Shown: positions 34,226 through 56,575 of the stretch, in pieces
Numbering within the stretch: position 1 is the stretch's first letter
Layout of the letters: each line of letters starts with the position of its first letter
Source: Psococerastis gibbosa
Taxonomy: Eukaryota; Arthropoda; Insecta; Psocodea; Psocidae
Reading direction: 5' to 3'
DNA length: 64,000 nucleotides
Assembly (NCBI GenBank): GCA_963971405.1
Contig: OZ020484.1
Location: 6,758,001-6,822,000, forward strand
Position numbers and translations under genes: made by a program
Notes under the pieces: generated by a model
Databases searched by the model: none
The model's input: only the letters and a program-made list of their open reading frames with translations
Told to the model about the DNA's origin: nothing

Positions 34226-34229
34226 AATG

Positions 34230-34367: not shown

Positions 34368-34397
34368 ATGGCCGTCTATAGCTTCCTCATTGTATTG
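34368..34397 (+). CDS. Secreted-protein gene, exon 1 (first 10 codons)
   Basis: ATG in good context (AAGAATGG), then MAVYSFLIVL, ending in phase 0 at donor GTAAGTACAG. Too short for ORF callers. Its hydrophobic run joins without a gap to LACLFATHATP of exon 2. A (GTCT)n element starts 39 bp past the donor. Confidence 0.65.
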
Positions 34398-37300
34398 GTA
34401 AGTACAGTTTAAGCATTATTTTATTATCATTTATTATTGCTATCCAATTTATACGTAGTAGGAAAGCATTGTGATGGTCGAAATTTTCGATTCCGAGATT
34501 TCAACGGATTTACACGTTTTGAGGTCCCAAGAACCCAAAAAAGTGGTTTTTACGAAATGTCTGTCTGTCGCTCTGTCGGTCTGTCTGTCTGTATGTCAGT
34601 CTGTGCGTTGATTTCCGGGCAAACTACTCTGTCGATTTTGATGAAATTCGGCATGTAGTTTCACAAAAGCATACTTCGAGATTATTTTTTTTTTTTTTTT
34701 GGGGGGCTAACTCAATTTGGGGGTTTTATTCTCAAAAAACTCCAAAAAAAACGTCAAAAAAAAATTATTTCCCGAAAACGGCTCCAACGATTTCTTTTAA
34801 ATTCGCATATATTGTAGTTGTTATTAATGTTGATAAAATCGCTTGCCCCTTGATAGTTTGCTTCGGGGGGTAAAAAAATAAAAATAACTCAATTTTAATG
34901 AAAAATGACTAAAAAATAATTTTTCTGTGAAACCTTTCTATCGATGATTTCTACCTTCAGGTATGTTTTAAGTGTTAAATTGAGTAACGAAACCGGATAG
35001 GTTGCTTTCCCAAAAAATATTTGGCTTTGCACAAAAAATTATTTTTTGAAAAAATGTTAGAAAATTCGCGCTCAAATGCATTGTGTGCCCTGCAATTATT
35101 GCTGTGTGGTAATTAATGTGTTGGTCTGACCTTTCTATAATTTATCTCACTTCCAATGACGTCAGGTGGACAACCCCCCCCCCCACCCCGAAATAACGGA
35201 AATTTAACCACTGGAAAATTATTTGCCATGAAATTACTCATAATCTGTATCTACTAATGTGCATCAAATGGCCTACCACCCAAGGACGGGCGTTGGCTGA
35301 AGAAGAAGAAGAAGATCTACTAATGTTGATAAATTGGAAAGCATGTTCGAGTAAACTCGGACCGGTTCTTTCGTATTGGTCTCGTTCACCTGTGTAGAAC
35401 AGTACGTACATACTGTACATGAGGTTGCTTATATTACCGGGCAATATCGACTGAAGCTGAATCGTTCACTTCGTTCGTTTGGTAAAGTTACAAATGCGCA
35501 TAACAATGTCTGTATTAATTATTACGGTACCTCCTTTCAATACAGTAAAAGTCAATTACGTTTACTTATGATAATTTACACTTAATCCCTAATAAATAAC
35601 TAGGCCACCTTACCCTTTCTCAGCATCGCAATATTCACAGCTTATTCACAACAATATTCACAACTTCGAATTAAACTATAGCACTGTTATTACTAAAAAC
35701 TACCCTGCATCCATAAAAAATAAAAAGCCCTTCAGTAATAATCTTCTTCTTCTTCTTCCTAAAATAAAAAGAGATACGACAGATAACATATCGAGACATG
35801 ACTTTTGTGAACCTGCAGCCTGATCATGGCGATTAATTAAATACCATGTCCGGTGATGGGATTAATTTAATTGTGTAAAATAAATGAAAAGCCAATTTCA
35901 GAATTTTTAAATTGTGATGTTGGCAATGCTAAACAACTGAACTGACGCGACGCTGCCGTAGCAAATATAAATAGCAAATATAAACACACATCGCCCTATA
36001 GAAATAAACATGTTTTAATATTTTGAATAAATATATTAAGGATTATAAATACTTTGTCTAAATCTAAGGCAGAAAAAATTAAGAACCCCACCAAAAATAT
36101 AGATAATTCAATTGTTTAAATTTGAATTTTCCGCGCTTAGCACTGCGACGATTACCAACATCAAAAATTACAAAAATCTGAAATTAGCTTGTGTGACATG
36201 GTATTAAATTAACCCCGGGATTATAATTGCCATGATCAGGCTGCTGCATGCCAAATATGATCAAAATCCACAGAGTAGTTTTCCCACCTATCGACGAACA
36301 GACACAAATGCAGGCAGGACATGTAGAGTAGTGGTACAGACTCCGACCCGAAAGGTTGTTGGTTCGTGTCCCACACTCACTACATGCCATGTTTTGGAGG
36401 GCATGTAAGGCAGGCGGTCCCGGGCTTTCCTAGTTGAGTGTAAGAGAGGGCTTTATAGCCCTAACTCCGCTACGTTGGCTTAGTAATAGAACAAAAGAAC
36501 CGGTCCTAGTTTACTCGAACATGCTTTCCAATTTATCAATTATTAGGCAAATAATATGAGCAGTTTCATAGTAAATAATTTTCCTATGGTTACATTTCGG
36601 ATCTCTCGTTGGTTATGGCCTTGATATCCTCTATCCCAAAGCACTGAATTGATCGATGGTATTCCAAATCCTAGAACGGGCACACCAATACATTTTAACA
36701 TACGAATAGTCAGGCTCGGATCTAGATTTTTTTTAAATAGGGGTGAAATTTTAGACATTTTCAGAGCAATAAGGGTTCTATATAATATAGTTAATTAATA
36801 AGATCGAGCACATGGGAGGCCCGGGGGTCTCCTCCGTGAGAAAATTTGTTAAAAATTAGACTGAAATAGTGGGGGTTTTCGCATTTTGAGGAACCTAATG
36901 GGGGGCTATAGCCCTCACAGCCCCCCCCCCCCCCGTAAATCAGCGCCTGTGAACAGTAATTATATTGGCAGGGAACGCAATGTATTGGAGCGTGAATTTT
37001 CCATAATTTCATTAAAAACTATTTTTTGCACAAAAGTTAATACTTTTTTGGGAGTGGAACTTGTTCAGTTTTGTTACGTTTTGTTACTTTATTTAACACC
37101 TACAACTTACCAGAAGGTTTCACAGAAAAATTACTTTTATTCATTTTTAATTAAAATTTAGTTATTTTTATTTTTTTACCCCCAGAATCAAACTATCAAG
37201 GGGCAAGCGACCCCCCGCATTTTGTTAACATTAATTACGACTACAATATATGAGAATTAAAAGAAAATCGGTCGAGCCGTTTTTGAGAAATAATTTTTTT

Positions 37301-40300
37301 AGACCTTTTTTTTTGGAGTTTTTTGAGAAACAAACCCCCCCCCCCCAAATTGAGTTTGCCCCAAATAAAAAAACTTGTCCTGAGGTATGGTTTTTGTGAA
37401 CCTATACATGCCAAATTTAATTTAAATCAACTGAGTAGTTGGCCCGGAAATCGATGAACAGACAGAGCGACAGACAGACTGAGCGACAGACAGACAGATA
37501 TTTCGTAAATATCCCTTTTTTGGGTTCCTGGGACCTAAAAAGGTGTAAATCCGTTGAAATCTCGGAATCAAACATTTTGACCATCACAAAGCTTTCCTTA
37601 TACTACGTATAAATTGGAAAGCAAAAGGTCAATATTTATTTATTTATACGAACAGTCCGACACGACAGTTAGACTTTTCGTAAAAAACAATTTTTGGGTT
37701 CCTGCCGTTCTACCATGGCGATTAGTATTATACCGTACCTTATTCTTGGATTAAAAATCTACCTAAACATAACAATTTTGAACAGCACAAATTATCTTGT
37801 TCACATTTTTAATCCTAAGTAATGATTAATAATAATCGCCATAGTAGGCCCACTGGGATCTCAAAACGTGTAAATCCACTGAAATCGCGAAATGGAAAAT
37901 TTCGACCATCACAAAGCTTTCCTTATATTGACCTATAATTAATAGTAAAGCAATAAAACTACCAATAATCATGGCGGAATTCTGCCCAAGGTAGACTCCG
38001 TTAGTCTTCAAATCGACTGCATTGGTTTATTTTCTTCCTGTAATGATATAGAGCCTAATTAGGCCTTTGCGGTCATAATAGTCTCAAGCAGACCACAAGG
38101 ATAAAATAGTCATCATAATAATGTACTGTATATGGACAGAAATAGACTCTGCATTCAAATTTCCTGCATTAGGACATCGTATGCGGTTACCATTATTTAA
38201 CACTTTGCCAATCACCAATAAACTGGAACACAGACTTGTATTGTTGCCAGAAATTCCAGAATTGTAGCCTAGTTAGTTGAAGCCCATCGAAGTTATTAAT
38301 GGGGAATAGAATCGATAGAATTTCAAGCAATGGCGGAACCACGGGGGGGGGGGTCAGGGGGTCAATTTACATTAGTAGATTCATAACATAGTTAAAAAAT
38401 AAATAAAACTCAACTCTTCAACAAACAAATTACCTTTTAAACTTAAATACAACTTGTGAAACCCCCCCCCCCCTAAATTTTCTGCTGTATCCGCCCTTGA
38501 TTTCTCGATGCTTAGCTTTTGGACGAAGGAAAGAATGAAACTGATGTCTCAATAATGAGTTCGCTCGCAGGGGCGTCATTTGGGGTTACCCCCCCCCCCC
38601 TAAGCTTTTAGAAAAATGGAAATTGCAGTTTGTACAATTTAAAGTGAGTAAGGGTAAGCCACTGTTGTTTAGGCGCTTATTCCACCTACGTCAATAGTCA
38701 ATAGTCAATGTGGTATTGACGGACATTTCAATTTTTCGTTGGTACACTACATTCCACTTGTTTTTTCAACTATTGATCACTTTTCTTCTATTGACACGTA
38801 TTGACACAAATTTTTGAAATTTGGCGCATTTGTTTTTTGAAATGTTGTTTGTATTTGTTTTCTTCGTACACTTATTATTTTCAATAAAACCTAATAATAG
38901 TAGGAGATCCGAAGTAAGATCGACCTTCACCGATCTGTTTAATGGATGAAAACTGTTTTATAAACAATCTATTAAAATGTTTGTACTTAACATATTCCAT
39001 GACGCCATTTTAGTTTGTTATTGTTTGCAGCGCGTGATTTTACTCTATGATCATTGATCAATTTTAACTATGGCATAGAGTAAAATTGAAATGTCCGTCA
39101 ATACCACATTTACTATTGACTATTGAAGTAGGTGGAATAAGCGCCTTATATACAGTAGTCTAGCACTCCAGCATACCTTTTTTATTAAAAAAAAAAAGAA
39201 TTGAAGTGAAAAGCTATATTTAGCTCAAAAGATACGTGACAAACATTATTTTAGAAATAATTACTTAAACTTGTGGTCCAGCTATATTATGACGACGCCC
39301 TTGTTAGGCGTAGATTGTGGGTTCGAATCCCGCCTAGCCCAGTTTTTCTATATCCTCTAATTTCGGTTATTACTTAAACATGCTAAAAAAAAATTTTTTT
39401 GTTGCTCCCCTGAATAAAATTTTGCATTCATCCTTGCTTCGAATGCATGAACAGTAGGGGGGGGCGCTTAGAGTAAGAGTTTGTTTGGTACCGGGGGCCA
39501 TTATATTGCCCAGGTAGGCACAGCGAGGTATCGCATACCAACTTTTACGACGTGCTTGCGTAGTTAAGTAATCTTCAGGTATACCCCGACGAAGGTCTTT
39601 CTATAATAATAAAATTTGGTACGGTTTGATGACCGGTGTCTTAGGCCAACTGATGGCACAATTCATTAGCTAGGTACTTCAGCCAGTGGCTTACGTTTAA
39701 AAGATTAAATTACTCGTGACTTCGTGGTATTTCATTTCAATTAACAAACAAAAAATTATCTACCTGCATTAAATGAAACTTGTTATAATAACAAGACTTA
39801 TTAGTACAGCCCAGCAAATAAACGTTTAGATATTAAATAAAAAGGTTTTATAATTACTAACACTAGTGGGTTTCTTAACGATTATTTGGATTTATAACTC
39901 CTGTTATTCTAACAAATTTTATTAAAACACTATTTTTTTTTTCAACGGCTTAAATGAAGGGGAGCTCAGGGGGTTCGAGCCAACAGTGATTCGTACGCGA
40001 TTTCGTTGAGAGAATTCATCATTGCCTTGGGCCTCTGGCGTCGATAGCTATAGTCTAGGGGTCTTGCCCCCCCCCCCCCCAAATAAAATATATTACACAT
40101 ATATATGTATATGTTACCGGGCCTCGTAGCAGTACAAACAATGGACCCCCCCTTCCCCCCTCCTATATACCCCCTCCTTTTTTACCTTCTTTCCCCTTTT
40201 TTATATTCCATATGCGATAATTTAAGTTATAGGTTAGATATTTTATAAGTAGTTACAAGTTAGATATAAGTAGATATAAGTTAGATATTTTACTATGTAT

Positions 40301-40588
40301 ACTGTTATGAAGTTATGGTTAACATGAAAAAAAAGACTTTATAGTCTTATTGTTCACCATTTGTATAGCAATAAAGTCGTTTATCCATTCATTCATTCAT
40401 TCAATCAATCATTCATTCAATCATTCATTCATTCATTCATATATTGTTGCTTTCCAATTTATACGTAGTATAAGGAAAGCTTTGTGACGGTCGAAATTTT
40501 CGATTCCGAGATTTCAACGGATTTACACGTTTAGAGGTCCCAGGAACCCAAAAAAGTGGTTTTTACGAAATGTCTGTCAGTCTGTCGT

Positions 40589-40639
<51 letters not shown>

Positions 40640-43600
40640 GTGCGTCGATTTCCGGGCAAACTACTCTGTCGATTTTGATGAAATTCGGCATGTAGGTTCA
40701 CAAAAGCATACTTCGAGATCATTTTTTTATTTGGGGCTAACTTAATTTGGGGGGGGGTTATTCTCAAAAAACTCCTAAAAAACGTCAAAAAAAAAATTAT
40801 TTCTCAAAAACGGCTCCAATGATTTCTTTTAAATTCACATATATTGTAGTCGTTATTAATATTAACGAAATGCGTGGGGTCGCTTGCCCCTTGATAGGTT
40901 GCTTCTGGGGGTTAAAAAAATAAAAAAAAATAAATTTTAATGAAAAATGACTAAAAAATTATTTTTCTGCGAAACCTTTCTATCGATAATTTTTACCTTC
41001 AGGCATGTTTTAGGTGTTAAATTGAGTAACGAAACCGGACAGGTTGCTTTCCCAGAAAAGTATTTGGTTTTGTAAAAAAAAAAAAAACGTTTTTTGAAAA
41101 AATGATAGAAAATTCACGCTCAAATGCATAGCGTGCCCTGCCAGTATTGCTGTGTGGTAATGTGTTGGTCTGACCTATCTTGAATTTACCTCACCTCCAG
41201 TGACGTCAGGTGGACAACCCCCCCCCCCCCCCCCCATCGACATCGGAAATTTAACCATAGGAAAATTATTTACCATGAAATTACTCATTTTCTCTATCTA
41301 CTAATTTTGATAAATTGGAAAGCATGTTCGAGTAAACTCGGAGCGGTTCTTTTTGTTTTGCAATAGGATCTATGTTGGAAAATTCCAAATTGATAGTAGC
41401 AAGACAAACAACTGTTTTTCGCTAAACATCAGTTAAGAGCCAATCAGAGTATACCACTCCCACGTGCTCCACTTCATTATTAATAGCCTATAAGCTACCT
41501 ACCTTATCTATCATATTTTATGTTCTATTGTTATTACTGTGAATTAGCCTCTTAAGTTGGTGCATCCGCGTTCCATTCGTCCTTTTGCAATAGGACCTTT
41601 TTGACACTGTCACTTCAACAGCCATCGTTCGAATTTTTTTAAAACAACTTTTAGGCATACCGTACATAATAACATATTTTGTATTGTAACTGAAAAGGCT
41701 CTCACGGCCGGAGTCAGATGAAGAAACAGTGGAATCCGGGATGATGGGCCGTGGTCGATCTGAAAGTGAATCTTCAGTGGCGCTGCGGAGACTTCGAACA
41801 CTGTACCGGAAGGACCACGGCCTATGAGCCCCGATTCTACTGTTTCTTAATATTTTGTGTTCCTAGATTAAATCGTCATAATGGTCTTATTCAAGACTTC
41901 AACCCATGGAACTCATCCACCTTATTTCCAACGACATTTGGGCTTGAAATATATTTTTTTCTTAACATAAGACCTTTTGCAAAACGTGTGGCTGGCAGGA
42001 TTTCAATGATGTAATAAAATAATTTCGGTTAATTTTTGGCGTACACCCTGTTGAAAAACCAGTGGCGAATTAAGAATCTATCCAATGGACCGTGGTTGAG
42101 TTGTATGTAATCTTCCAAACAACAACAGTTGTGGGCCTAAAGCTGGGTTAACATGCATATTTCGATGCTACAGGTATTTATGGCTGGAGCAATTTGTCAT
42201 AAATTCGTTCCAGCAATTAGAGCTAAAGTCATGCAATGTCATCCATTCACGGCTTTGTTATCCTATTATAATGTAAAAAATATCTGCAATCCACCGTAGC
42301 TTATATAATTAGTACCTAACTACAACCGATGGACGATTTGACTTTTTCAGATTTTAGATTAGCACGGGCATTTTCATAACTTATACAAGGAAGTGAATGG
42401 CCGCAGAATATGTACGTACTCGTATGTACTGTAAAGTAGATAGGCCGATTGTTGTTTTTTACGGGTGTACCCCTATATGCTGTCCTACTTATGCATTGGT
42501 AGGTAGGTACCGAGATAGATAATAATATTACGGTTGCTTGGTTAACAATTCTCCTAGGGTTAAATTTTGGTTGCCTCGACTTTCCCTATCCGAAAGCACT
42601 GAATTGAGCGATGAGGCCACTGAATAGTCTATAACGGGCATCAGGGGGGGGGGGGGGGGCACGGTTCAACTTGCCCCAGCTCCCTTTCCTCGAGTAATGT
42701 AAGACGTGGTTCATGTCTCCCCGGGCCCCTTTGCAGCAATATGAATGTAAGCACTCCTTTGTTAGCTTTGTAAAATCCACAGCTATACTTTACTACTATT
42801 AAAATGCGTAAAACCCTACTATTTTGCACTTATACCTCAAATTTTTCCTTATCCTGCCTGATGACGTCATATGGTATACTAAGTTTTGCCCCCGCCATCA
42901 TTCTACAACTTTACGCCACTGACGGGCATACCAATTTATTACAACATGGTAATATAATAATGGCTGACAGGGAATGCAATTTATTGAGGCATGAATTATC
43001 CATAATATTTTGTTATCAAAATAAAAAACTTTGCTTGGGAAAGGAACTTATTCAGTTTGGTTCCTCTATTTAACACCTAAAACATGCCTGAAATTAGAAA
43101 GCATCAATGAAAAGCTTCCGCAGAAAAATTATTTTTTGTCATTTTTCACGAAAATTGCGTATTTCTTATCCCCCCCCCCCCCCCCAGAACCAAACTAACA
43201 AGGCGGGCGACCTATCGCGTGTGGTTTACATTGATAACAGGTACGGTACTGTATAATATGATATGTATGTGAATTTAAAGATAAATTGTAGGAGCCATTT
43301 TTTAGAGAAAAAAAAGGAAAAAAGTTTAATTTTAGCCGTTTTTTTGGAGTTTTTTTAATAGTAAATACCCCCAAATTGAGTTAGCCCAAAATAAAATAAA
43401 TCCCGAGATGTTATTATTTTGTGAACCTACATGCTAAATTTCATCAAAATCCGCCGAGTAGTTTGCCCACAAATCGACGAACAGGGAGACAGAAATGTTG
43501 TAAAAAAAACTCAAAACGTGTAAATCCACTAAAATCTCGACATTCAAAATGTCGACTATCACAAAGCTTTCCTAATACTACGTATAAAAATGAAAGCAAT

Positions 43601-46600
43601 TAAAGGGTAGTAGCATATAAACAATTTAATGAATGTATCCAATTGACGTCTTCAGTTGCCTCTGTAGGTTAGTACCCGTGTTGAGTTACGACTCGTCTCC
43701 GATCGCATGGGGTGTAGAGGCTCGCAGAAGTACAAGCACCCTCCCACCTGGCCATTGAAGTAGATATAAATACAATCAATCAATCAAATATATTTATTCC
43801 AATTTTTCCAAGAAGACAAGTAGGTATACATAAAATGACAAAATTAAAATAAACTATAAATACGTTAAATTAAATTAAGTTATATTACATTCATTACTTT
43901 ACAAGGAATTATAACCAGCCTATCTTAAAATTGCAACATGATTAAGCTATTTGGGGTAAATTGGTTACAGCGTTTAAACCTTGATTCATGCAGTACTTGC
44001 ACGCGACCAGACCATACCGGTCCCAGGTTGCAACCGGCAAGGTCATTCCTCAGTTCGTCGAGTTGTCCGTAGTCCAGTCTTTTATTAAGGCGCGGTTTCC
44101 ACCGACCGGCTAGGGCTAAATACAAATACGGTGACGTGGTAGCAGACATTCAAGACTTAGGCGGGGTTTCCATCGACCTCGCATTGCAGAATGCAAATGA
44201 CATTGACGGAAATTAGAATTTTTCTTTTTATAGAAATCTATTAAAATGTTTGTAATTAACATATACCATGACGCCATTTTTTAATTTTAGTTTGTTTGTT
44301 TGTGATTTTACTCTATGATTATTGGTCAATTGTAACTATGGTATAGAGTAAAACAAACATTTCCGTCAATGTCATTTGCATTCTGCAATGCGAGGTCGGT
44401 GGAAACACCGCCTAAGCCTTGAATGTCTGTTACCACGTCACCGTATTTGTATTTAGCCCTAGCCGGTCGGTGGAAACCCCGCCTAACCTTGATTCCTCCC
44501 GGCTGTTTACAACTTGTCCAACTAGTCGACGAATAATTTTATGCCATGCTCCTAGATTAATTTACATGGCTTTACATGGCTAAATAGTAGAGATTATTCT
44601 TTTAAGGACTCTTTATGGACCCAGACCTACTTATAGTGTCAGGACATGTACAGTTGTGCTACAGACTCCGACTTTTACCCAAAAGGTTGTTGCTTCGAGT
44701 CTCACACTTGCTACATTTTCTGGCCATGCTTCGGAGGGCATGTAAAGCAGGCGGGCCCCGGGAATTCCTAGTTGAGTGTAGGAGAGGGCTTCATAGCCCT
44801 AGCTCCGTTAGGTTGGCTTCGTAATAGAACAAAAAAGTCAATATTTATTTATTTATTTATAGTGGCCCATGTCCCTTGTCCAATGTCAACGACCCCATGG
44901 ATTACAGACATTATTTGTATTGTTTCCGTATCAATTTTTAGCCATTGGCAATCTGATATATGTCCTCGATGTCAACCTAGACCCGCTACAAGCGATAAGG
45001 GACAAGCTGAGACAAGCTTACCAGAGCAATGAAGTATGGCTAATTAGTAAGTTTGTGCCATACAGCCTGAACAGTCGCTTCACGAATTCTGAAGTCATTT
45101 CGGGTTAGTGCCTTTGTTTCATGCACACGGAGAATGTAGGGAAATACATATTGTACATATAGGACGCAACTTAAAAGAAACTTTCAATATAACTTGAGAC
45201 TTTTAATGCAAAATAATAGTAAATAGTGAATATTTACACCTACAAAAACTAGTCGCAATTTCGAGTGATACTCGAGTCGACTAAAGCTAAAGCTCGCCTA
45301 ATAGGCATTCTTAATTTCAATTCAAAATAATGTAAGAAAATCCACCCTGATCCCAAAAAGCGTACGTGCACCTGCCTTCTAGTAGTAGTAGTGTTCGTCG
45401 GGTTAATAACGACTTAGGCCTCATTTGGGCCCATAGAGCGACCCCGACTTGACTGTCCTATGCCAGCCCATAGGACAGTGGACCTCCTGATTATAGTGGA
45501 TTCCGAACCACTTGGGAAACACAGTGAAGTCACACGATTAGTTCGGAGGTGACCAGGACAAGTCCTACCATGTTTCTCTAAGGGAAACTGAGAAATACCG
45601 TGGGCTTGGAAGCCCCTTCTAGCATTGAGAGCTTACCTTATATAATGTGTCTCTTTTCAATTAGATAATTAGAACGTACTGTATTTAGCGTGAGAAAGAG
45701 CCTCATTCTAATTATTGCATTACTAATTTACGGGGTAAATGCTACATGTTTTTTTTATTATACAAAAGATACATTTGACTTAGCAAAGGCTTAGGAAAAA
45801 ATACACATTATATAAAATTAATTGACCCTCACATACTACAAAGTAAATAAAAAATAAATAAGGACTTTTTATTGTTTCTATTACTAAGCCAACCTAGCGG
45901 AGTTAGGGCTATAAAGCCCTCTCTTACACTCAACTAGGAAGGCCCGGGACCGCCTGCTTTACATGCCCTCCGAAGCATGGCCAGAAAATGTAGCCAGTGT
46001 GGGACTCGAACCAACAACCTTTCGGGTGAAAGTCAGAGTCCGTACCACTACGCTACATGTCCTGACAACAATACTCGAAGCTATGGAGAACAGAATCAGT
46101 GCATTTGAAATGTGGATATACAGAAACTTTGGAGAGATCGTGTGATTCGTGTCCCTAATGGGAGAAGGCGAGTTGCTGCTAACGGTTAATTAAGAAACGG
46201 AAACTAACATACTTCGGTCCTGTGATGAGGAAAGAAAAGTATCTTCTGCATGTAATAATCCAAGGGAAGATAGAAGGATAGAGGGCTCCCGGCAGTAGAA
46301 AAAAATCTTGGTTGAAAAACCTGAGGTAGTGGTTAGGGAAAAACACGACTTCACTTTTCAGAGCAGCAGTCTACTACTACACCAACCTAGCTCAGTTAGG
46401 GCTGTAAAGTCCTTCTTACACTCAACTAGAAAAGCCCGGCCCTGATTTACATCTGAAGCATGGCTAGAAAATGTAGCAAGTGTGTGACTCGAACCTATAC
46501 CCTTTCAAGGGAAAGTCAAAGTCCGCATCACTATACTATATCCGTTCGGACAACTACAAAACAATGAACAATCGTAAGCAATCGTAACATTTTAATGGCC

Positions 46601-47176: not shown

Positions 47177-47229
<53 letters not shown>

Positions 47230-47657
47230 CGATGTAATTGAAAAAGACATAAGAATGATGAATTCTAATTGTAAAGACATTAGAGTACTGCACCTTAATA
47301 TAAGAAGCTTAAAAAAAATACTACAATGAGTTAGAAATAATTAAAACACAAGTAAACCCTGAAATAATATCGATATGTAAAAATATATAAATATATATAT
47401 AAATAAATAAATATATAATATAAAAAATGAAGAAAAAATTGGGAAAGCAAAACAAGTAATAAAAAAATGGTTGCTAGAGACTCAATAGGCAAGACCTATT
47501 GAACCCACAATATCCTTAAAAAGTTGCAACATTTAGTGAAGAAGACGCCACCCCCGACAAGCGGAAGCTTTGGGGTGGTCGTGAATTGTAATTAGTCTAT
47601 TTTTATTTTGAATTAATATAATCCCCTAGCTGGTGGAGTAACCAGTTAGGGAAAAAA

Positions 47658-47746
<89 letters not shown>

Positions 47747-49921
47747 AACTGTACAAATATCTTATAATAAAGAATAACTATTTTATATATTTAAACAAAA
47801 TTGTTGGAAACACACAGAATAAGAGGCAACTGAGAAACGTAGACACATTGAGACAAAATATTCCTATAACACATAATAAGTACGGCAGACGCCTCAATGA
47901 AACAGTTTTACCAGAGATATTTAACAAATTGCCACTTAAACTAAAAGAATTGAACAAAATAGGGAAAATAAAAAAAGAATTAAAAAAATACTTAATTTTA
48001 AATACAGACTATTAGCCATTTCATTATACATATAATTTTACATCAATATATAATAATATATAATAGTATAAATAATAAATATATATAAATACATCCTTCA
48101 GAGTTCAGAAGGATCTCACTCATTGCAGAAAGCTAGAGTGAGTACTATATAATGGTTTATTATTATTAATTATTATTAATTATATTTATATCTTGCAGAG
48201 CCACTGCACTATGATCGCTCGATAAGCGTAAGCTTGAGCGTGATAATGCTGATTAATAACAAATTGTTGTTCACAATATATGCACCTTGTCCGGGGTTAC
48301 CGGTCAAGGAAAAAAGTGAAGTGAAGTGATTATTATTATTATCCGAATGTGATACGGATACAAAATTGGAAATTTAGGCCTACTACGAATTTTTGTATTT
48401 TTTATGAATTTTTCATAAGACCATTTTCGCGGCTGGGGTATTAAATTAATTTAACCAAAAATACCATCATTTGTATACCGTACAAAATATTTTGAACCTT
48501 CTTCGATCGACTTCGACGGCAAGATGTAAGCGTGCTTGTACTAGTGCGAGTCTATACAAGCCATCGGAGACTTGTCGCAACTCAACACGGGTACTAACTT
48601 ACAGGGGTGACTGAAGACATTCATTAAATTGTTTGTATGCGATTAACCTTTAAAAAAAAGTTTTTGCTGAGTGTATTTCAATAACTGTTAAGTTTGTTTA
48701 TAGGCCTACCTTTTGAAAATTTCCGGCCTTAAAAAGAGCCCTTCTCGGGTAGTCGAAGGTTCAGGTGCAAAATGCGATGTTGGTACTCATTTAATGAGCA
48801 AAAGTTTAGCTTGAAGGCCACATAGCCTACAGGTAGGTTGGTAGGTACCAATGTCATTGTTTATTCGAAGCGTTGAGTGTCGAAGCTGCTCAATGCTAAT
48901 GGACATCCTTGGAATTAACGCCCACTGCACGTTGCAGCTCAGCTTGATGATTAGTGCCAATTTTTAATTTAATCAAGTACCTAGCTGCTAATTAAGGCTG
49001 AGATTGGCAAAAATAAATGTTCACAAAAATCATGTCTCGGGACTGTTTATTTTTACTTTGGGCTAACTCAATTTAACAAATATACAGTACATTAGGTCTG
49101 CAGACTAAATTCGACAGTGTCTGAGGACATCAATCATACCGAAGAAGAGGCAAACGCGTCCAGTCCGGTCCTGAGCAGACCTTAAAAACCTCAATTAGGC
49201 TACCGTACAAAAAATAGTTCCAGGCTAATAAATAAGCGCCGCCAACCATTCCATTTTTTAGCACATTAAATGTTTATTACAGGCAGGCACCTTACCAACG
49301 AGGGAAGAACTACTAGTTTTTGCAGTAGTTTAGAAAAACTGGAAAAAGCGGTTTGATGTGCGTTTGACTGAATTATCCTTATTAGACTATTACATAAACG
49401 ACAAATTACATAAAGACGTAAAGATTCCACTTCCCTTTCTGCTTCTAAGGTCACAATCACACAATCAATTGGTTGGCAGCAACTCCCTGCATATTATCCT
49501 CCCGGTTTTTCGGTCCTCCTCTTCTTCTTCTTCTTCCTCTTCTTCTTCTTCTTCCTCTTCTTCTTCTTCTTCATCTTCCTCCTCCTCCTCTTCTTCTTCT
49601 TCTTCTTCTTCTTCTTCCTCCTCCTCTTCTTCTTCTTCTTCCTCCTCTTCTTCTTCTTCTTCTTCTTCTTCTTCTTCTTCCTCCTCCTCTTCTTCTTCTT
49701 CTTCCTCCTCTTCTTCTTCTTCCTCTTCTTCTTCTTCTTCCTCCTCTTCTTCTTCTTCTTCCTCCTCTTCTTCTTCTTCTTCCTCCTCTTCTTCTTCTTC
49801 TTCCTCCTCTTCTTCTTCTTCTTCCTCCTCTTCTTCTTCTTCTTCCTCCTCTTCTTCTTCTTCTTCCTCCTCTTCTTCTTCTTCTTCCTCCTCTTCTTCT
49901 TCTTCTTCCTCCTCTTCTTCT

Positions 49922-49953
<32 letters not shown>

Positions 49954-52900
49954 TTCTTCTTCTTCTTCTTCTTCTTCTTCTTCTTCTTCTTCTTCTTCTT
50001 CTTCTTCTTCTTCTTCTTCTTCTTCTTCTTCTTCTTCCTCCTCTTCTTCTTCATACTAATTTTTGCCACAGAAGTCGCTAAGCCGTACCTCCAAATTGAA
50101 ATCGTTGAATTGTGTTGTGTATGCAGTTCATTGACGTTGGGGGTACATACTAATTAGACAAAGCAGAAGACTAGAGAATCTTCAATTGTTTTCACCTTCA
50201 AAAAACAACCGCTGTGTTTACTCACAAGTGTCAATAAGTGTAAGCCTGATTACCACATTACCACATACTGTCGATGTAGCGTGTATGTGTTTTTCCGTAT
50301 TCATAATGACTGATGGGCAAATATTTATTTTTCCGAACGATAGGATCATATACATTACTAGGAAAAATTATATTGGATTACTTGGATTGAACAGTTGCTT
50401 ACACAATATAATAGGTTATCTAGGTAATTAAAAAGGCTTCCAGATGGGAGACCGATGATGAGACAGGCGAATCCGGAAGATGGGTCGTGATCGATCTGAA
50501 TGTTTACTTCCAAGCATTTCAACAACATCTGCGGTTGGCATCTTCAGTGGTACTACGTAGACTTCCAAGATTGCATCTGAATTGTCCAGCTAAGTTTTAC
50601 ACTTTCAGATCGACCACGGCCTATTAGCCAGGATTCTCTCCTGTTCCAACCAGAGGCGTTTCTTCAATATTTTTCAGGAGGGTGTAGAAGGTGACAATTT
50701 CCTCGTCAATTTTTTATTTTTTCAATCGCAATTTACCCCCTGTGACACCAAGTGACATCCTGTACGCCTCTACAGCTTACGATTCTCGCAATCTCAATCT
50801 CGAATATATTTTTATTGTCACCAAGAACATCAGAAGTCATAACCATCTTCGTAGACAATTCTCCTTCTTCTAATGCCTCTTCTATCGAAGATTCGCGATC
50901 ATCATGGTAATTTGGACCCAAGAGAATGCTGATCTGAAAAGGGAAGTCGTGTTCTAGCCGTACCACTGCCTCAGGCTTTTCAGTCAAGGTGTTTTTCTTC
51001 TGCCGGGAGCCCTCTGTCCTTCTATCTTCCCTTGGATTATTACATCCAGAAGGCGATACTTTTCATTCCTCACCACATGCGGCCGAAGTATGTTAGTTTC
51101 TGTTTCTTAACCGTCAGCAGCAACACGCCTTCTGTATCCATTCGCCTCAGGACCTCAGCATTAGGGACACGATCTCTCCAGGATATGCGCAGTATTCGTC
51201 CCACATTTCCAATGCACTGATTATGTGACACCATAGCTTGTGTCAAAGTACACCCTCCATCCCATAAAGACAATCGCAGACAATGAACGGATGTAACTCC
51301 CTTGGCCTTGCACGCGCCAACTTAGTTACTATACTTAAACTTTGTAGATAATCTTCTTGATGCGACAACTAATATGCGTAAGATTTATAGACGGGCTACT
51401 GTACGTTTAACTTGTGCCATAGTGGCATCAATGTCGTCTATGTACGAGCCAGAGAAAATGAAGGTCTCCGGGAAGTCGGAATCAATGGATTGGTAGGCTA
51501 CTATTAGCACTGCCTACACGAAGACATTATTCTTCCGTTCTGATAATATCTAATAAGGGTCGCTACCACCATTATCTTCTTCTCATTCTTCCAATGCCTC
51601 TTCTATCGAATCGAAGACTGGCGATCATCATTGCAATCGTAGACACGTGGATACTCTACTTGGGACTCCCCAAAAAGAAGTCAAGTATGTTGAGTATCAT
51701 TCTTCAAATGCCTCTTCTATCGAAGATTTGCGAACATCATGGCGATAGATAGTAGTTACCATACTTCCGGACTCCCCAAATGGAGTCTAGTATGTAGAGT
51801 ATCAAATGTCATTAATCATTATGACTGTACTAGGGAATTGTAATGCAGTGGTTTCTCGTTGCCTTCTGCATCCTTGTGCCGTTGACTCTTCATTGAGTTC
51901 CTCCGCCTTCGGGGCCCAACCCCAGGAGAAAAGTGTCTTAGTAGAGGTTGCTTATTTAGTGTCGGCAACTATTCGCGCCGTCAGATAGCCATACTCGGGC
52001 TACTGGCCTACTGCAAGCCTACACAAGACGGTAGCCAGGATTTTTTCGGGGGGGGGGGGGGGGTAGAAATTTCATTGGGTATTACATAGTGGTTTTTATT
52101 TTTCCTCCCAAATTCCGATTCTATCTAGTATGAAGCCATTTCAATTCGGGGGGGGGGGGGGTTGAACCCCCATTGGCTACGGCCTTGAGCCTGCACCACT
52201 AGACTCACCCTCCAATTATGCCGCTGCTTGGTTGGGGACTGCTTATTCGTTGTACTCACAGCTAGCCACAATATCTGGTGGCCTTTGTGCTATCCGCCCC
52301 CTGCTAGTAGCCCTAGCATTATCAAAATTAACAAATAATGACTTTTTGTTCTATTACTGAGCCAACCTAGCGGAGTTATTTCCGTATTTCCCGTAAATTT
52401 TACATGACCACGGCCAATCTATGCTAGTGGCAGTCATATTCTACGCACCAACATTTAGAGGAACAACTCTTATATAGCCTAATAGAAGAGAGCGGCTGAA
52501 GAAGGAATTCCTGGATAACGGAAGGAGGACGCAGGAGCTCGAACGAAGCAAGAGCTGAAGAGGAAGGCACAGGACCGAGAGATCTGGAGGATGGTATGCA
52601 GGGAGTTGCTGCCAACCAATCGTTGTGATTGTGACCTCAGAGGAAGCCCTCTCTTATACGTTCAAGACTAGCGGGAATACCCAGCCCGCAGCCAACCTAT
52701 CAGGTTCTCCACCTGGGCACACAACCTATTCTTATTCCAATAAAACAATATACTGGCCATAAGTTTCCTCAAGGACTTGCACGACTACAACCTTTGATAT
52801 TGTTCGAGTACCAATATGGTACCTATGATAACAAAAAATGGGTACCTACTTCAATACGTCTGACACTTCAATAAATAGTTCTATTCATGTACTCAGTCAG

Positions 52901-55900
52901 GTTCTGGTTCAAGGGGGAATGGAAAAAAAATCCAATTAGGGCTTGACTCGACGTGCTAGGTATATAAGTACATATGTATAGCAAGTAGCACGTACGAACC
53001 TTGTTCCTCTTGGACGAAAAAACTGCTACAACCCAACAGGAACAGTGTCAGAACAGTGTAAACGGTCATTGAGACCATCGAAGAAATTAAATGGAACACT
53101 GCACCGGCCCTAGCACGTGGGAACACAGCTGCTGGTTCCTCATAAATTTTGAATTGAATTTCATTTATTTTAATTAGACATTTTAATTTCAATTTAATTT
53201 AATTTTTTATTTATAGTGATATATTTTGTGTAAACCTGCATACATGGTCTTAAAGGATGGAATCAAATTTATTTGATTTGATTTGATTTGACATACAGCT
53301 GCTGCAGGATATTTAGTGTTGACAAGTTGCTGCAAGCTAGAGATTCCAACAAGATGCACTTTGTTTCCTTACGCCAATTACTTTGATTCCTGAATTAGCT
53401 GATGCTGACCAAATAAGGCGTGTACCTATTCCACTGGTCAATATTCCGTCATTTATTATTTAAAAAAAGTTGAGATTTTTGTTTTAAGGAGACTATTATG
53501 TATATACTTATACTTATGGGGGCTATACCCCCCCCCCCCATTAGGTTCCTCAAAATCCGTAACACCCCAATATTTCAGCCTTATTTTAAAAAAAAAAAAA
53601 AAAAACGTATGTCATCTTAGCCCCCCCCCCCCTTGGTCTCATTCTAGATCCGCACCTGTACTTATATTATAATATTATATATATTATAATATATATAACA
53701 TATTGTAATATATAATATGGTAGCAGACTTTTTTTAATCCCAAATGACGGATTATTGACAGATGGAATAGCCGCCTAAGCTATGAGGTTCTGTAGGGACA
53801 GTTTTGGTCACTAGGTTCGCTGACGACAAACCGATATCCATATTATTCAAAATGGCCGCCGTTTGCATGTGAAAGCTAAGCTCTTAGCATCTAATTAATT
53901 CTTTAAATATTTTTACTATGCCTGGACCTTATTTCGTTGCATATAATTTGATATATATATTCTCCATGATTTATAGAAAAATATCACTTTAAAATAATTC
54001 GTAATTAAAAATAGTTTTAAAATAGTATTGAGGTTTATGGAAAAATCAACGCTTTGATATCATTGCAACTGGTGCTGCCATCTACAAAATGACGTCACAA
54101 ATGAACCTCATTGTTTTGTTTTTTTTTCAGTTGGCATGCCTGTTCGCCACTCATGCAACGCCCATCAATAAAATCCCTGACAACTATGACATCAATGAAA
54201 ACATGATCCCCGATGAAGATGTCGGAGACATTGAGGGCCTACTGCCGCCTCTGGAGACCTCCGTGGACTACTACTCCACAGGACTGGCAGGAGGCTCGCA
54301 AGAACCGTCAGTGGAAGTCCGCAACAGCTCGTACATCATGGACACCATCAGCAAAGTCTTCCGTCTCGCCAACTCGAGAGACGAAGATAAGGACACGGAG
54401 CCAAGTCAAGCTGACAAGGACTTCATGGAGCAGATGGCACAAGGTTAGTCGTACACAAACGCATCTGCTTCTACTAGTGATTGGATTTTTGGTTGGACCG
54501 AACCGCGTACCGAAGAAAGGAGAACCGAACCGAACCGACGAAAGTCCTGTTTGGGCCCGCGGCCCTCTGATCGTCTGTCCGTGGTTTCTACCAACAGCTG
54601 CCGATTCAGCAAGTCTTGCTGCTGCATAGCTGCTGCATAGCTGGCTCGGCATAGCATGTGTGATTATGAGTGTGATTTCCATGTGCAGTGGAAACAAAAA
54701 AATATAAAAGGTAGGCCTACCTACCAAAATTTGGTACCAATAAATGGTACCAAACAGGCCGACCGAAGAGATCCGTTATAAAACATAATATGACTGTACC
54801 AGACGTTCTCTATTAACAACTGATGTTCTTTACTGCAAAGAGTTTCAAACTCTACCACTAATAAAATTTAATAGATTCAAGGATTTTCTTCCTTAATAAG
54901 TTATTATATATAAAAAAAAATTGCACTTAATTCCACAACATTGGCCTAATTCTAAAACTCTCTCATGGATTTTTGTCCTTCTACAAGTAATGGATTTCCC
55001 CCCACTTTTTTTCAATTTTACTAAGATTCAAAAAGTTCTTTTATAAACGAACTAGTTAGAGTTTAATGACACCTTATGAAGCTTGCGGGACTAAACAAAA
55101 TATCCTTTTTGTCCCAATGTTAAAGTTGTTACACCATTGCATACTTTCAAAATTGCAGGCTCTATTGCATTGTTTGCTCTGTTTGGTAAATGTACTAGAC
55201 TGCAGCGTGTCTTTATGCGTTAGCTAGGCCCATATCTCTGTCCACAAAAATATGTTTTGACGGTACAATTCTGAATCCACCCCTTTATTTACAGTAATAA
55301 AGTCAGGACATGTAGCGTAGTGGTACGGACTCTGACTTTCACCCGAAAGGTTGTTGGTTCGAGTCCCACACTGGTTAGATTTTCTGGCCATGCTTTGGAG
55401 GGCATGTAAAGCAGGCGGTCCCGGGCCTTCCTAGTTGAGTGTAAGAGAGGGCTTTATAGCCCTAACTCCGCTAGGTTGGCTTAGTAATAGAAACAATAAA
55501 AAGTCCTTATTTATTTATTTATGTATTTATTACAAGCTGTAGGCTACCATAGCTGGGACGTAGGTTCGTATGGGTACTGATATTATTGTATAAATATAAA
55601 ACATTCTTAAACTTTGAACATCCCCTTATTTTAATAGACGACGACCCTGACTGTAGCTTTACTGTTTTTTTTTTTTTAAGTTATGGTAGGCCTAGATAAT
55701 TTGAAGTTACCTTACAATAATTACAGTACATTACATAACACAAGGCAGAAAAAAAAACAGTTGAAATAACCTAGGAAGACAGAATCTGAATTTACATACT
55801 ACAATAATACCAAACTTGTGTAAGTTTATGTGTTTTCATAACAGTCATTTTTTTTTTATATAGGCTATATAAAATCACCATAGAGCTGCTGAGGGTACTG

Positions 55901-56575
55901 TAGTTTTCCATCACACAAGCGAGACAGCGTACTTATAAATAAATCCCTTCTGACAAAAAAAAAACTTTTTCTAATGGGCCTACATTTACATCATAATTCT
56001 AGCAGTAAAATAAGCATTTCATCTGTTAAGGTTTCGCAAGTCTCTTCGGGACCAACCTCCCTAAAACCGATGACGACAGCAACCGCAGACCCGTCTTCAA
56101 GATCAGCTCCGACGGTTTGTCACTTGAATTCGCAGCCACTGACGACAAAATCGACGAAGTCAATGTACGCGAAGAAACTTCTGCCTATACTACTCCTGCT
56201 ATCATCGACGAATCAGAAGGACTCGACAGAACTACCTTGCAGGACGACATGACCACAAGCGAAGAGCCCATGCAGTCTGATGAAGCCCAACCACGAAGCG
56301 ACGATTCCGATGCTGGTACTGACTTCTTGAAGACGCTTTGGGACACCGTTAAGACATCACTCGAATACGCAAGTAGACTTATTTTTGGTGGGGACCAGCC
56401 TGCTGAGAAGTCTTCGGCTGATTCCGTGACCACCGTAGCACCATCTTCTTCCAACGTTGGTGGCGGGTTGGTAGCACTAGAGGAGCCTCTGACGAGACAT
56501 CACCTGCCGTCGCAGGAGTTTGAGAAGGGTGGGCGGGACGTTGATGCGCTTTTGTACGGCAGGGGGATCGCTTGA
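34368..56575 (+). CDS. Novel acidic secreted protein, 3 exons with a 19.7-kb first intron
   Basis: Joining 34368-34397, 54131-54443 and 56031-56575 gives 888 bases, about 295 residues. The N-terminus MAVYSFLIVL-LACLFATHA-TP is a textbook signal peptide with likely cleavage after THA, and is created exactly by the exon 1/2 splice. The mature chain is acidic, rich in Asp, Glu, Ser and Thr, with one early N-glycosylation site (NSS). It has two predicted amphipathic stretches (YIMDTISKVFRLANS and FLKTLWDTVKTSLEYASRLI) and a His/Arg-containing tail. There are no cysteines outside the signal peptide, no transmembrane segment and no known domain. I do not recognise the family. The 5' exon is inferred; exons 2 and 3 are better supported. 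Confidence 0.72.
34436..35371 (+). mobile_element. (GTCT)n-bearing element, full copy
   Basis: The left hairpin is slightly shortened (GCTATCCAATTTATACGTAG). (GTCT)n at about 34558-34600, conserved GATTTCCGGGCAAACTACTC, C-run at 35176-35185, right end TTCGAGTAAACTCGGACCGG. A GAA-rich insertion (about 35265-35320) lies near the right end. Confidence 0.8.
35790..36318 (-). mobile_element. (GTCT)n element fragment carrying a CCTGATCATGG MITE
   Basis: Element sequence TTTTGTGAACCTGCA is interrupted at about 35818 by a 420-bp insert. It resumes at about 36242 with CTGCATGCCAAATATGATC and AACAGACACAAATGC. The insert has inverted ends GCCTGATCATGGCGATTA and AATTGCCATGATCAGG and a CTGCA duplication at both edges. 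Its interior is AT-rich and has no ORF. Confidence 0.7.
36319..36496 (+). repeat. tRNA-like SINE copy, tail split by an insertion
   Basis: GACATGTAGAGTAGTGGTAC to GGCTTAGTAATAGAACAAAA. The tail continues at about 37623 (AAAAGGTCAATATTTATTTA) after a (GTCT)n element. Confidence 0.82.
36497..37622 (-). mobile_element. (GTCT)n element inserted in a SINE tail, itself interrupted
   Basis: GAACCGGTCCTAGTTTACTC at the left and TACGTATAAATTGGAAAGC at the right fix both element ends exactly against SINE tail sequence. An internal insertion of about 340 bp (36613-36955) carries GGCTCGGATCTAG and C/G runs (C run at about 36927-36943). (GACA)n at about 37459-37497. Confidence 0.82.
37655..37925 (-). mobile_element. 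(GTCT)n element fragment with a small MITE inside
   Basis: ACTTTTCGTAAAAAACAATT then GGTTCCTG, interrupted at about 37697-37851 by a small element with inverted ends (CTACCATGGCGATTAGTA and TAATCGCCATAGTAG). It resumes CTGGGATCTCAAAACGTG and ends at the altered left hairpin. Confidence 0.65.
38328..38620. repeat. Palindromic G-run/C-run sequence
   Basis: GGCGGAACCACGGGGG on one side and CCCCCTAAATTTTCTGCTGT with ATCCGCCC on the other suggest a small inverted-repeat element of about 180 bp with homopolymer runs near its ends. A second C-run is at 38590-38600. Exact ends unclear. Confidence 0.45.
38672..39145. mobile_element. PIF/Harbinger-type MITE, second subfamily
   Basis: Ends GGCGCTTATTCCACCTACGT and its inverse ACTTCAGG-type end GTAGGTGGAATAAGCGCC, flanked by TTA on both sides (38669-38671 and 39146-39148). 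It shares the TTGATCAATTTTAACTATGG core with the first subfamily, but its terminal blocks (TCAATAGTCAATGTGGTATT) differ. 474 bp. Confidence 0.85.
39290..39375 (+). repeat. Fragment of a second tRNA-like repeat
   Basis: GTAGATTGTGGGTTCGAATC(CCGCC) contains a perfect pol III B box, followed by CAGTTTTTCTATATCCTCTA. The same downstream block forms the inverted element at 61580-61682. Confidence 0.5.
39380..40376. other. Stretch with no supported gene
   Basis: AT-rich with C/G runs at 39459-39464 and 40068-40081 and a pyrimidine-rich block at 40140-40200. No repeat copy recognised. Confidence 0.45.
40380..40441. repeat. (ATTC)n microsatellite
   Basis: About 60 bp of ATTC repeats with a few ATCA changes, ending directly before the left end of a (GTCT)n element. 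Confidence 0.9.
40447..41353 (+). mobile_element. (GTCT)n-bearing element, best complete copy
   Basis: 907 bp. Left hairpin TTGCTTTCCAATTTATACGT/AGTATAAGGAAAGC; (GTCT)n with a short (CT)n at about 40570-40640; GCGTCGATTTCCGGGCAAAC; CGGCTCCAATGATTTC; C-run at 41218-41236; right end AAATTGGAAAGCATGTTCGA and AGTAAACTCGGAGCGGTTC. Both ends share an inverted GCTTTCCAATTTAT-type block. No ORF of note, so non-autonomous. Confidence 0.85.
41705..41850. repeat. ACGGCC-type dispersed repeat copy
   Basis: CTCTCACGGCCGGAGTC, GAAACAGTGGAATCCGGGAT, GGCCGTGGTCGATCTGAAAG, TCTTCAGTGGCGCTG and, inverted, GACCACGGCCTATGAG plus ATTCTACTGTTTCTT. The arms form an inverted repeat around a short centre. Confidence 0.65.
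41851..42884. other. Stretch with no supported gene
   Basis: No splice-bounded coding block seen. A G-run at 42644-42658 lies in a block like those at 27640-28300. Confidence 0.45.
42885..43605 (-). mobile_element. (GTCT)n element, truncated copy lacking most of the microsatellite
   Basis: CAGGGAATGCAATTTATTGA, C-run at 43170-43185, GAGCCATTTTTTAGAGAA, CCGCCGAGTAGTTTGCCCAC, then only GGGAGACAGAAATG where the (GACA)n tract should be, and the left hairpin CCTAATACTACGTATAA. The right end is missing. Confidence 0.75.
43618..43762 (+). repeat. R1 repeat copy
   Basis: ATATAAACAATTTAATGAAT, GTTAGTACCCGTGTTGAGTT, ACCTGGCCATTGAAGTAGAT. Same family as 211-361. Confidence 0.65.
44099..44483. mobile_element. 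PIF/Harbinger-type MITE with TAA duplication
   Basis: GGCGCGGTTTCCACCGACCG at the left and GGTCGGTGGAAACCCCGCC at the right, flanked by TAA (44096-44098) and TAA (44484-44486). Core ACTCTATGATTATTGGTCAA, inverted relative to the copies at 9653-19789. Confidence 0.88.
44640..44868 (+). repeat. tRNA-like SINE copy
   Basis: GACATGTACAGTTGTGCTAC, TTGTTGCTTCGAGTCTCACA, GCAGGCGGGCCCCGGG, tail (TTTA)n. Confidence 0.8.
44869..45050 (+). repeat. Dispersed repeat, reference copy
   Basis: Directly follows the SINE: CCCATGTCCCTTGTCCAATG, TTTGTATTGTTTCCGTATCA, CGATGTCAACCTAGACCCGC, GACAAGCTGAGACAAGCTTA. Other copies: 13565-13760 (inverted), 46945-47045, and a fragment at about 650-730. Confidence 0.5.
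45051..45850. other. No gene; one dispersed-repeat fragment
   Basis: Positions 45480-45600 match the repeat at 26300-26520 (GATTATAGTGGATTCCGAAC, GTGAAGTCACACGATTA, TCGGAGGTGACCAGGAC). A small hairpin (TGTCCTATG ... CATAGGACA) lies at about 45450-45475. Confidence 0.5.
45855..46065 (-). repeat. tRNA-like SINE copy, near consensus
   Basis: The reverse complement reads GACATGTAGCGTAGTGGTAC, TTCACCCGAAAGGTTGTTGG, GTTCGAGTCCCACACTGGCT, TCCTAGTTGAGTGTAAGAGA. A box and B box both intact. Inserted beside an RTE-type LINE fragment. Confidence 0.85.
46068..46372 (+). mobile_element. LINE fragment (RTE-like C-terminus)
   Basis: Broken frames spell LEAMENRISAFEMWIYR, RDRV-RVPNG, KKRKLTYFG, VIIQGKIEG and APGSRKKSWLKNLR. 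This order (AFEMW ... W-x-DRV ... KRKL-YFGH ... IIQGKI-G-RG-GR) is the usual tail of many RTE/Jockey-type LINE proteins. A related inverted fragment lies at 50735-51275. Confidence 0.7.
46375..46545 (-). repeat. tRNA-like SINE copy, diverged
   Basis: Inverse of the body (ACCAACCTAGCTCAGTTAGG, CTCAACTAGAAAAGCCCGG) and tRNA part (ACTCGAACCTATACCCTTTC). Several deletions, older than its neighbour at 45855. Confidence 0.7.
47175..48175 (+). mobile_element. Deleted LINE with (ATT)n tracts
   Basis: An endonuclease start (VLHLNIRSLKK ... NPEIISI, 47270-47375) is followed, after deletion, by a C-terminal block at about 47790-48015 (NKRQLRNVDTLRQNIPITHN, GRRLNETVLPEIFNKLPLKL, then stop). (ATT)n microsatellites flank and interrupt it (47177-47229 and 47659-47745). 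A frame beyond the stop is absent. Confidence 0.75.
48507..48652 (-). repeat. R1 repeat, inverted copy
   Basis: ATCGACTTCGACGGCAAGAT, TTGTCGCAACTCAACACGGG, GTTTGTATGCGATTAACCTT. Confidence 0.65.
48655..49435. other. Intronic stretch, no feature
   Basis: Within the giant first intron of the secreted-protein gene. A short (GTCT)n-element scrap (ATCATGTCTCGGGAC ... GGGCTAACTCAATTTAAC) is at about 49022-49077. Nothing else recognised. Confidence 0.45.
49440..49512 (-). repeat. LINE 3'-end scrap, inverse of 52560-52640
   Basis: GGTCACAATCACACAATC then TTGGTTGGCAGCAACTCCCT and TCGGTCCT match the inverse of the end of the LINE fragment at 52480-52680 (R-E-L-L-P-T-N-R). Confidence 0.6.
49513..50057. 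repeat. TTC/GAA tract of about 545 bp with 21-bp higher-order repeat
   Basis: Pure polypyrimidine on the plus strand (one A at about 49573). From about 49730 to 49930, CCTCC blocks interrupt TTC runs at a regular 21-bp step (CCTCCTCTTCTTCTTCTTCTT without gaps). The right part is uninterrupted (TTC)n of about 100 bp. Apparent poly-Ser, poly-Leu and poly-Lys frames are by-products. Such mirror-symmetric tracts can form triplex DNA. Confidence 0.95.
50440..50660. repeat. ACGGCC-type dispersed repeat copy
   Basis: GAATCCGGAAGATGGGTCGT, GATCGATCTGAATGTTTACT, ACATCTGCGGTTGGCATCTT, and an inverted arm TCAGATCGACCACGGCCTAT plus GGATTCTC. Longest copy in the window. Confidence 0.65.
50735..51275 (-). 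mobile_element. LINE fragment (RTE-like C-terminus), inverted
   Basis: The minus strand reads NVGRILRISWRDRVPNAEVL, RRMDTEGVLLLTVKKQKLTY and FGRM, then a broken tail including NNPREDRR. Same tail family as 46068-46372, better preserved. Confidence 0.75.
51276..52020. repeat. Intronic stretch with a short tandem block
   Basis: AATGCCTCTTCTATCGAAGA with GCGAACATCATGG recurs near 51595, 51710 and, outside, 50870. ACTCCCCAAA-TGGAGTCTAGTATG-type flanks recur twice, giving about two units of 110 bp. Nothing coding. Confidence 0.5.
52020..52192. repeat. Small element with G-runs and inverted GTAGCCA ends
   Basis: GGTAGCCAGGATTTTTTC, then a run of about 16 G. Later a run of about 12 G, GTTGAACCCCCATTGGCTAC. 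The outer GGTAGCCA and TGGCTAC(GG) are inverted repeats, so this looks like a short MITE. Confidence 0.55.
52340..52380 (-). repeat. tRNA-like SINE tail fragment
   Basis: GACTTTTTGTTCTATTACTG(AGCCAACCTAGCGGAGTTA): the inverse of the SINE 3' end only. Confidence 0.7.
52480..52680 (+). mobile_element. LINE 3'-end fragment
   Basis: Frame: a charged stretch (AEEEAQDREIWRMVCRELLP, TNRCDCDLRGSPLLYVQD) to TAG, followed by CAATAAAACAATATAC about 60 bp later. It resembles the basic tail of a non-LTR element, with a matching inverted scrap at 49440-49512. Confidence 0.5.
53510..53640. repeat. C-run element fragment related to 36700-36955
   Basis: GGGGGCTATA then a C-run (53529-53539), ATTAGGTTCCTCAAAA, an A-run, a second C-run (53619-53631) and ATTCTAGATCCGCACCTG. 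Blocks are the inverse of those at 36705-36950 (GGCTCGGATCTAGA ... AGGAACCTAATGGGGGGC). Confidence 0.6.
53782..54111. mobile_element. MITE family ATGAGGTTC, inverted copy ending 19 bp before an exon
   Basis: ATGAGGTTCTGTAGGGACAG to CACAAATGAACCTCAT, 330 bp, inverse of 8123-8464 and 62551-62873. It ends 19 bp before exon 2 of the secreted-protein gene and contributes two in-frame ATG codons upstream of it. Confidence 0.85.
54131..54443 (+). CDS. Secreted-protein gene, exon 2
   Basis: Acceptor TTTTGTTTTTTTTTCAG. Phase 0 start LACLFATHATPINKIPDNYD. It ends ...DFMEQMAQ plus one base before donor GTTAGT. The frame is also open upstream to ATGs at 54089 and 54101, giving an alternative signal peptide MNLIVLFFFQLACLFATHA without splicing. 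That reading would use the MITE and the polypyrimidine tract as coding sequence, and I rate it less likely. Confidence 0.82.
54444..56030 (+). other. Intron 2 of the secreted-protein gene
   Basis: AT-rich, with a single full SINE (55303-55522). No other feature recognised. The acceptor at its end (TTTCATCTGTTAAG) has an AAG rather than a CAG. Confidence 0.7.
55303..55522 (+). repeat. tRNA-like SINE copy, near consensus
   Basis: GACATGTAGCGTAGTGGTAC (A box TAGCGTAGTGG fits TRGYNNARNGG), TTGGTTCGAGTCCCACACTG (B box), tail AAACAATAAAAAGTCC and (TTTA)n. Best copy for defining the family. Confidence 0.88.
56031..56575 (+). CDS. Secreted-protein gene, exon 3 and stop
   Basis: The frame continues exactly from exon 2 (G|GT), reading GFASLFGTNLPKTDDDSNRR, then an acidic Ser/Thr-rich central part, FLKTLWDTVKTSLEYASRLI, a Ser/Val/Thr linker and a final LPSQEFEKGGRDVDALLYGR-GIA with TGA at 56573-56575. 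An in-frame TAA just before the acceptor means the exon cannot begin earlier. Confidence 0.82.

Follow-up and report, generated by a model that had tools for sequence, protein, structure and literature searches.

A probable three-exon gene of an arthropod encoding an acidic secreted protein with a split signal peptide, and a mobile element abutting its second exon

The analysed window is a stretch of 64,000 nucleotides (G000:C1:6758001-6822000), and the genome searched comprises 409 Mb in 68 contigs. On the - strand, WD40 hits above the Pfam cut-off were found in two pieces (6619-19307). Further exon-like frames of this gene lie at 17190-17510, 16060-16521, and 11434-11742, and the encoded WD40 protein is presumably WDTC1-like. 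A tandem array (30000-31587; 124-bp unit, 12.8 copies) separates it from a + strand gene; this is very probably a genuine arthropod gene, present in single copy and encoding an acidic secreted protein. The features of this second gene and its surroundings are collected in Table 1. Near the end of the window, Tc1/Tc3-like transposase fragments occupy 63307-63998; the piece at 63307-63579 matched the Tc3 helix-turn-helix below the Pfam cut-off. No Pfam match was obtained for the frame 63702-63998, which we take to be a Tc1/Tc3-like transposase fragment. Elsewhere in the genome, 43 matches resembling mitochondrial COX1 were found, including the mitochondrial one; many are nuclear, and one nuclear piece is nearly full length, in two parts (G000:C14:11085363-11086704). 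The mitochondrial contig (C68) carries ND2, COX1, COX2, and ATP6 frames in the invertebrate code, with nine in-frame TGA codons in COX1. The gene order appears to be that usual for insects, and the host is taken to be an arthropod, probably an insect.

Table 1. Positions of the secreted-protein gene and adjoining features in the window.
Feature	Position	Strand	Remarks
Dispersed repeat	33966-34109		At least 39 other genome places at 75-86% identity, from 40 scored of 386 candidates
End of second dispersed repeat	34164-34245		At least 39 other places match within this stretch; 40 of the 175 candidates were scored
Putative 5' untranslated part of exon 1	34246-34367	+	Within 34246-34426, where no other copy was seen
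Coding exon 1	34368-34397	+	MAVYSFLIVL, predicted N-terminal half of the signal peptide; GTAAGT donor in phase 0
Intron 1	34398-54130	+	19,733 bases; many dispersed and simple repeats
Short MITE-like element	53782-54111	+	330 bp, in intron 1; ends 19 bases before exon 2
Coding exon 2	54131-54443	+	LACLFATHA (predicted remainder of the signal peptide) through MAQ, plus 1 base of the following codon
Intron 2	54444-56030	+	1,587 bases; dispersed repeat at 55300-55531
Coding exon 3	56031-56575	+	Stop codon TGA
Candidate polyadenylation signals (AATAAA)	57119 and 57438 (to 57443)	+

Joining the three coding exons gave a single frame of 295 amino acids plus a stop codon. Exon 1 has 30 nt in phase 0 and reads ATGGCCGTCTATAGCTTCCTCATTGTATTG followed by GTAAGT; the acceptor of exon 2 reads TTTTTTTTTCAG followed by TTG. 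Exon 2 ends with the donor CAAG/GTTAGT, and exon 3 opens after the acceptor TTAAG with GTT. All the intron ends are canonical GT-AG, and the frame is undamaged over the 295 codons; the exon 3 acceptor is weak, with TTAAG and 60% pyrimidines upstream. The frame of exon 2 reaches a stop 1 codon past its donor, and the frame of exon 3 has an in-frame TAA and is then open from its acceptor. The earlier note had described a 30-base exon with an ATG and a GTAAGT donor, a phase-0 exon that completes the signal peptide, an in-frame join of exons 2 and 3 to a stop at about 295 residues, and a repeat-filled intron 1. These claims hold: the coordinates, splice signal, and frame of exon 1 are as described, exon 2 joins it in frame, 295 residues and a TGA were computed, and 34% of the bases of intron 1 are copied elsewhere within the same window.

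The N-terminus of the joined protein reads MAVYSFLIVLLACLFATHA-TP. The signal peptide was assessed by computed hydrophobicity, and the predicted cleavage site, as placed previously at MAVYSFLIVLLACLFATHA-TP, looks normal. The start codon of exon 1 is flanked by A (-3) and G (+4). An upstream ATG in weak context lies at 34325; its 18-codon frame (34325-34381) runs across the main start in a different reading frame, and could act as a damper on translation if transcription begins before this ATG.

The coding character of exons 2 and 3 was assessed by three-base periodicity, against random window segments that excluded those touching the 3' part of the gene or the long simple repeat. The signal was 5.8 for exon 2, which was matched by 0.18% of 2815 segments, and 6.6 for exon 3, which was matched by 0 of 2753. 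For the WDTC1-like neighbour, two exon stretches gave 5.5 (matched by 0.29% of 2800 segments) and 3.2 (2.7% of 2852); the periodicity of exons 2 and 3 is thus at least as strong as that of the neighbour's two stretches. The GC contents at codon positions 1, 2, and 3 are 0.56, 0.42, and 0.59, and that of the window is 39%. From 40 shuffles of the window, 1.8 frames of at least 138 codons were expected per shuffled window, versus 0.125 frames of at least 181 codons; stop-free length by itself is weak evidence for exon 2. None of the three exons has a repeat copy within the window.

The predicted mature protein has 276 amino acids, pI 4.1, a net charge of about -34, 0 cysteine, 1 N-glycosylation sequon, and 1 dibasic site. 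The protein had been called acidic and rich in Ser and Thr; its acidity is borne out by the pI and the charge, but its Ser+Thr content (18%) is only mildly raised. The further claim that it fits no known family agrees with the searches: 0 Pfam families, with the chitin-binding R&R consensus absent, and 0 sequence matches among PDB chains were obtained at E up to 10. No paralogues were found in its own genome at E up to 10, where the matches were its own two larger exons (3 of 3 candidates scored). In collections where arthropod genomes are not expected, the whole protein gave 3 pattern matches in viral contigs and the exon 3 piece gave 53 in prokaryote contigs, with 0 confirmed in either case; the exon 3 piece had 0 matches in plasmids. 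As far as these searches reach, the predicted product is an orphan protein.

The pieces from exons 2 and 3 were modelled separately with AlphaFold2, each from a single sequence, with pLDDT of 61.3 and 49.5, respectively; values below 50 were obtained for 26 of 104 exon 2 residues and 113 of 181 exon 3 residues. Helices were modelled at residues 66-86 and 93-103 of the exon 2 piece, and at 95-119 and 169-176 of the exon 3 piece (the latter with very low confidence), together with three strands at residues 22-48 of the exon 3 piece. The protein is probably disordered over most of its length, apart from a few helices and perhaps a small region of three strands. Such a largely unstructured, acidic protein most likely would act outside the cell, as a component of the matrix, the cuticle, a gland secretion, or the haemolymph; this functional idea is weak, because the structure models have low confidence. 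A resemblance to the icarapin-like venom-gland proteins of bees is conceivable.

Of the new findings, the mobile element abutting exon 2 is the most useful. Its terminal inverted repeats (ATGAGGTTC/GAACCTCAT) are 9 bp long, and at least 39 other long genome copies share 93-97% identity with it; these are the most similar copies, since the best 40 were scored of 1861 candidates. Whole or partial copies in the window lie at 8122-8469, 11911-11979, and 62549-62873, and the longer pieces are 91-97% identical. Alignment of the window copy with 11 of the 39 others (12 copies) showed common ends, with small end changes, and unrelated flanks; GAACCTCAT is kept in 10 of the 12. By eye, no clear target-site duplication was seen in the flanks of the aligned copies. 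The element is short, has terminal inverted repeats, and has many similar copies; it is like the MITEs, as that class is generally described, in its 330 bp, its 9-bp inverted repeats, and its copy number. Other features of intron 1 were also observed. A possible second inverted-repeat element (53426-53770; arms of about 45 bp, 85% alike) lies directly before the first, a long (TCT)n repeat, some 530 bases in length, spans 49520-50052, and 39270-39337 is a weak tRNA-like match (Rfam, 31.3 bits) with no ARAGORN call, perhaps a SINE.

The position of the element bears on where translation begins. The pyrimidine tract and AG of the exon 2 acceptor are outside the element, and the zone in which the branch point of intron 1 is expected is inside it. 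The element ends with CTCAT, whose A, at 54110, precedes the final intron base by 20 nt; we take this to resemble the metazoan branch-point motif. One alternative is an unspliced start at ATG 54089 or 54101, with a leader MTSQMNLIVLFFFQLACLFATHA-TP read across the pyrimidine tract and exon 1 being a chance occurrence. The frame is open over 54032-54445 with a complete hydrophobic leader, and ATG 54089 has A at -3. However, both ATGs are inside the mobile element: all 12 aligned copies (window copy counted) have ATG 54101, and 10 of them have ATG 54089. The element-free flank reads ...A*AVLFFFQ before LACLF, with one stop and zero ATG, so the unspliced start could not be older than the insertion, unless the insertion also altered the flank. 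Such a leader would moreover take in the CAG of a good acceptor together with its whole pyrimidine tract. The start at 54089, which the earlier note had set against its own gene model, is therefore weakened together with that at 54101, because both ATGs belong to the mobile element, and an unspliced start is considered unlikely.

To evaluate the spliced start in exon 1, both strands of the 54,131 bases leading to exon 2 were scanned. An ATG, 4-25 codons without D or E, a hydrophobic core, a phase-0 donor, and a hydrophobic join to exon 2 were sought. On the + strand, exon 1 was the sole candidate, a lax donor threshold included. The - strand of the same stretch had one site (two nested ATGs) with lower donor score and hydrophobicity, and a second site appeared at the lax threshold. 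An earlier version of the scan gave 1 candidate on the + strand and 0 on the - strand. In 100 shuffled sequences, 0.04 candidates per sequence were found, none equal to exon 1 in quality. These figures overstate the case for exon 1 somewhat, because the criteria were fixed after exon 1 was already known and the donor matrix was taken from general background.

Upstream of exon 1, a TATA-type motif (TATAAATAG, 34205-34213) lies within the end of the second dispersed repeat, and it was present in 3 of 3 inspected repeat copies (L027, L028 on its other strand, and L029). Such motifs are expected 0.39 times per 350 bases of the window. The motif was ruled out as promoter support, since it is frequent and its location in a dispersed repeat end makes it weak promoter evidence. 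The interval 34110-34426 had been a candidate for a wholly unique stretch; this was ruled out by the second, shorter repeat, and 34246-34426 alone is therefore free of seen copies. For 34246-34426, no copy turned up within the window, where the comparison overlooks short repeats, nor in the 40 genome matches that were scored. Downstream of exon 1, repeats start at 34427.

It is quite unlikely that exons 2 and 3 are right and the first coding exon lies elsewhere, either upstream of the window or in a form too unusual for the scan. The evidence for exon 1 comprises 30 bases, and the nearby TATA motif is repeat-derived; yet 0 other good candidates were found in the 54,131 upstream bases, even at the lax donor threshold, and the WDTC1-like gene lies upstream on the other strand, with recognised exons at about 6.6-19.3 kb. 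A decayed or never-expressed gene (a pseudogene or chance frame) would agree with the lack of relatives in the genome, viral, prokaryote, and plasmid searches, but is very unlikely given the 295 undamaged codons, the strong periodicity, and the frames that stop at the splice sites.

The best explanation is a spliced three-exon, single-copy arthropod gene for a secreted protein (probability roughly 0.83). Transcription would begin upstream of 34368, and the 19.7-kb intron 1 would interrupt, in phase 0, the coding sequence of the signal peptide between codons 10 and 11. Removal of intron 1 would fuse MAVYSFLIVL with LACLFATHA into a 19-residue signal peptide, and the remaining 276 amino acids would be secreted. 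A fairly recent mobile element would have landed within the last 350 bases of intron 1; because it landed so near the intron end, the expected place of the branch point would now be in the element's end. The reading of a split signal peptide and an acidic secreted protein is well supported, and none of the tests run contradicted it. From the sequence we infer the transcription, splicing, secretion, and site of action of the gene.

A further idea, which is quite improbable, is that the insertion gave the gene a second, intron-free N-terminus and also the branch-point motif CTCAT for the older splice. If so, the element's Met would read Leu-Phe-Phe-Phe through the pyrimidine tract and provide a second, complete signal peptide as an alternative to the spliced version, and the CTCAT of the element, 20 nt before the intron end, would be used in splicing the older exon. 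A single insertion would in that case serve the old splice as well as make a rival start. The three-exon gene adds one well-defined orphan secreted-protein gene, which gene finders would easily miss because its start codon is 19.7 kb from the remainder. It may also be a clean case for studying how an intron keeps splicing after an element lands 19 bases before the acceptor, at the expected site of the branch point.

Orphan secreted arthropod proteins form a class with a signal peptide, an acidic body, and no recognised domain, and the protein described here has these features in common with them. It is not assignable to one orphan family, because 0 sequence matches to named proteins were found. 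Typical cuticle proteins are far less acidic. The signal-peptide introns of the CPR genes are usually short, and intron 1 is far longer; a 19.7-kb intron seems unremarkable for a repeat-rich genome of such size.

The layout of the gene was compared with that of the insect CPR genes. According to PMC2259329, 86% of the Anopheles gambiae CPR genes with introns have a split signal peptide, the first coding exons of these genes have 3-36 nt, and phase 0 is the commoner intron phase. Most Drosophila CPR genes have one intron, after the first few signal-peptide codons, and one such intron is termed short, as stated in PMC2793513. The first coding exon found here (30 nt, phase 0) is within the range given in PMC2259329, and is therefore a known form. 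The earlier note had treated the split-signal anatomy as remarkable; this view is not supported, as short first exons within the signal peptide are common in at least one large family of insect genes. The layout is familiar, and no new kind of system is indicated. The CPR genes differ in having the R&R consensus, whereas the Pfam search (E up to 10) gave 0 families for the secreted-protein gene, which by this test is not a CPR gene. The two are alike in their tiny signal-peptide first exon, phase 0, few exons, and secreted product.
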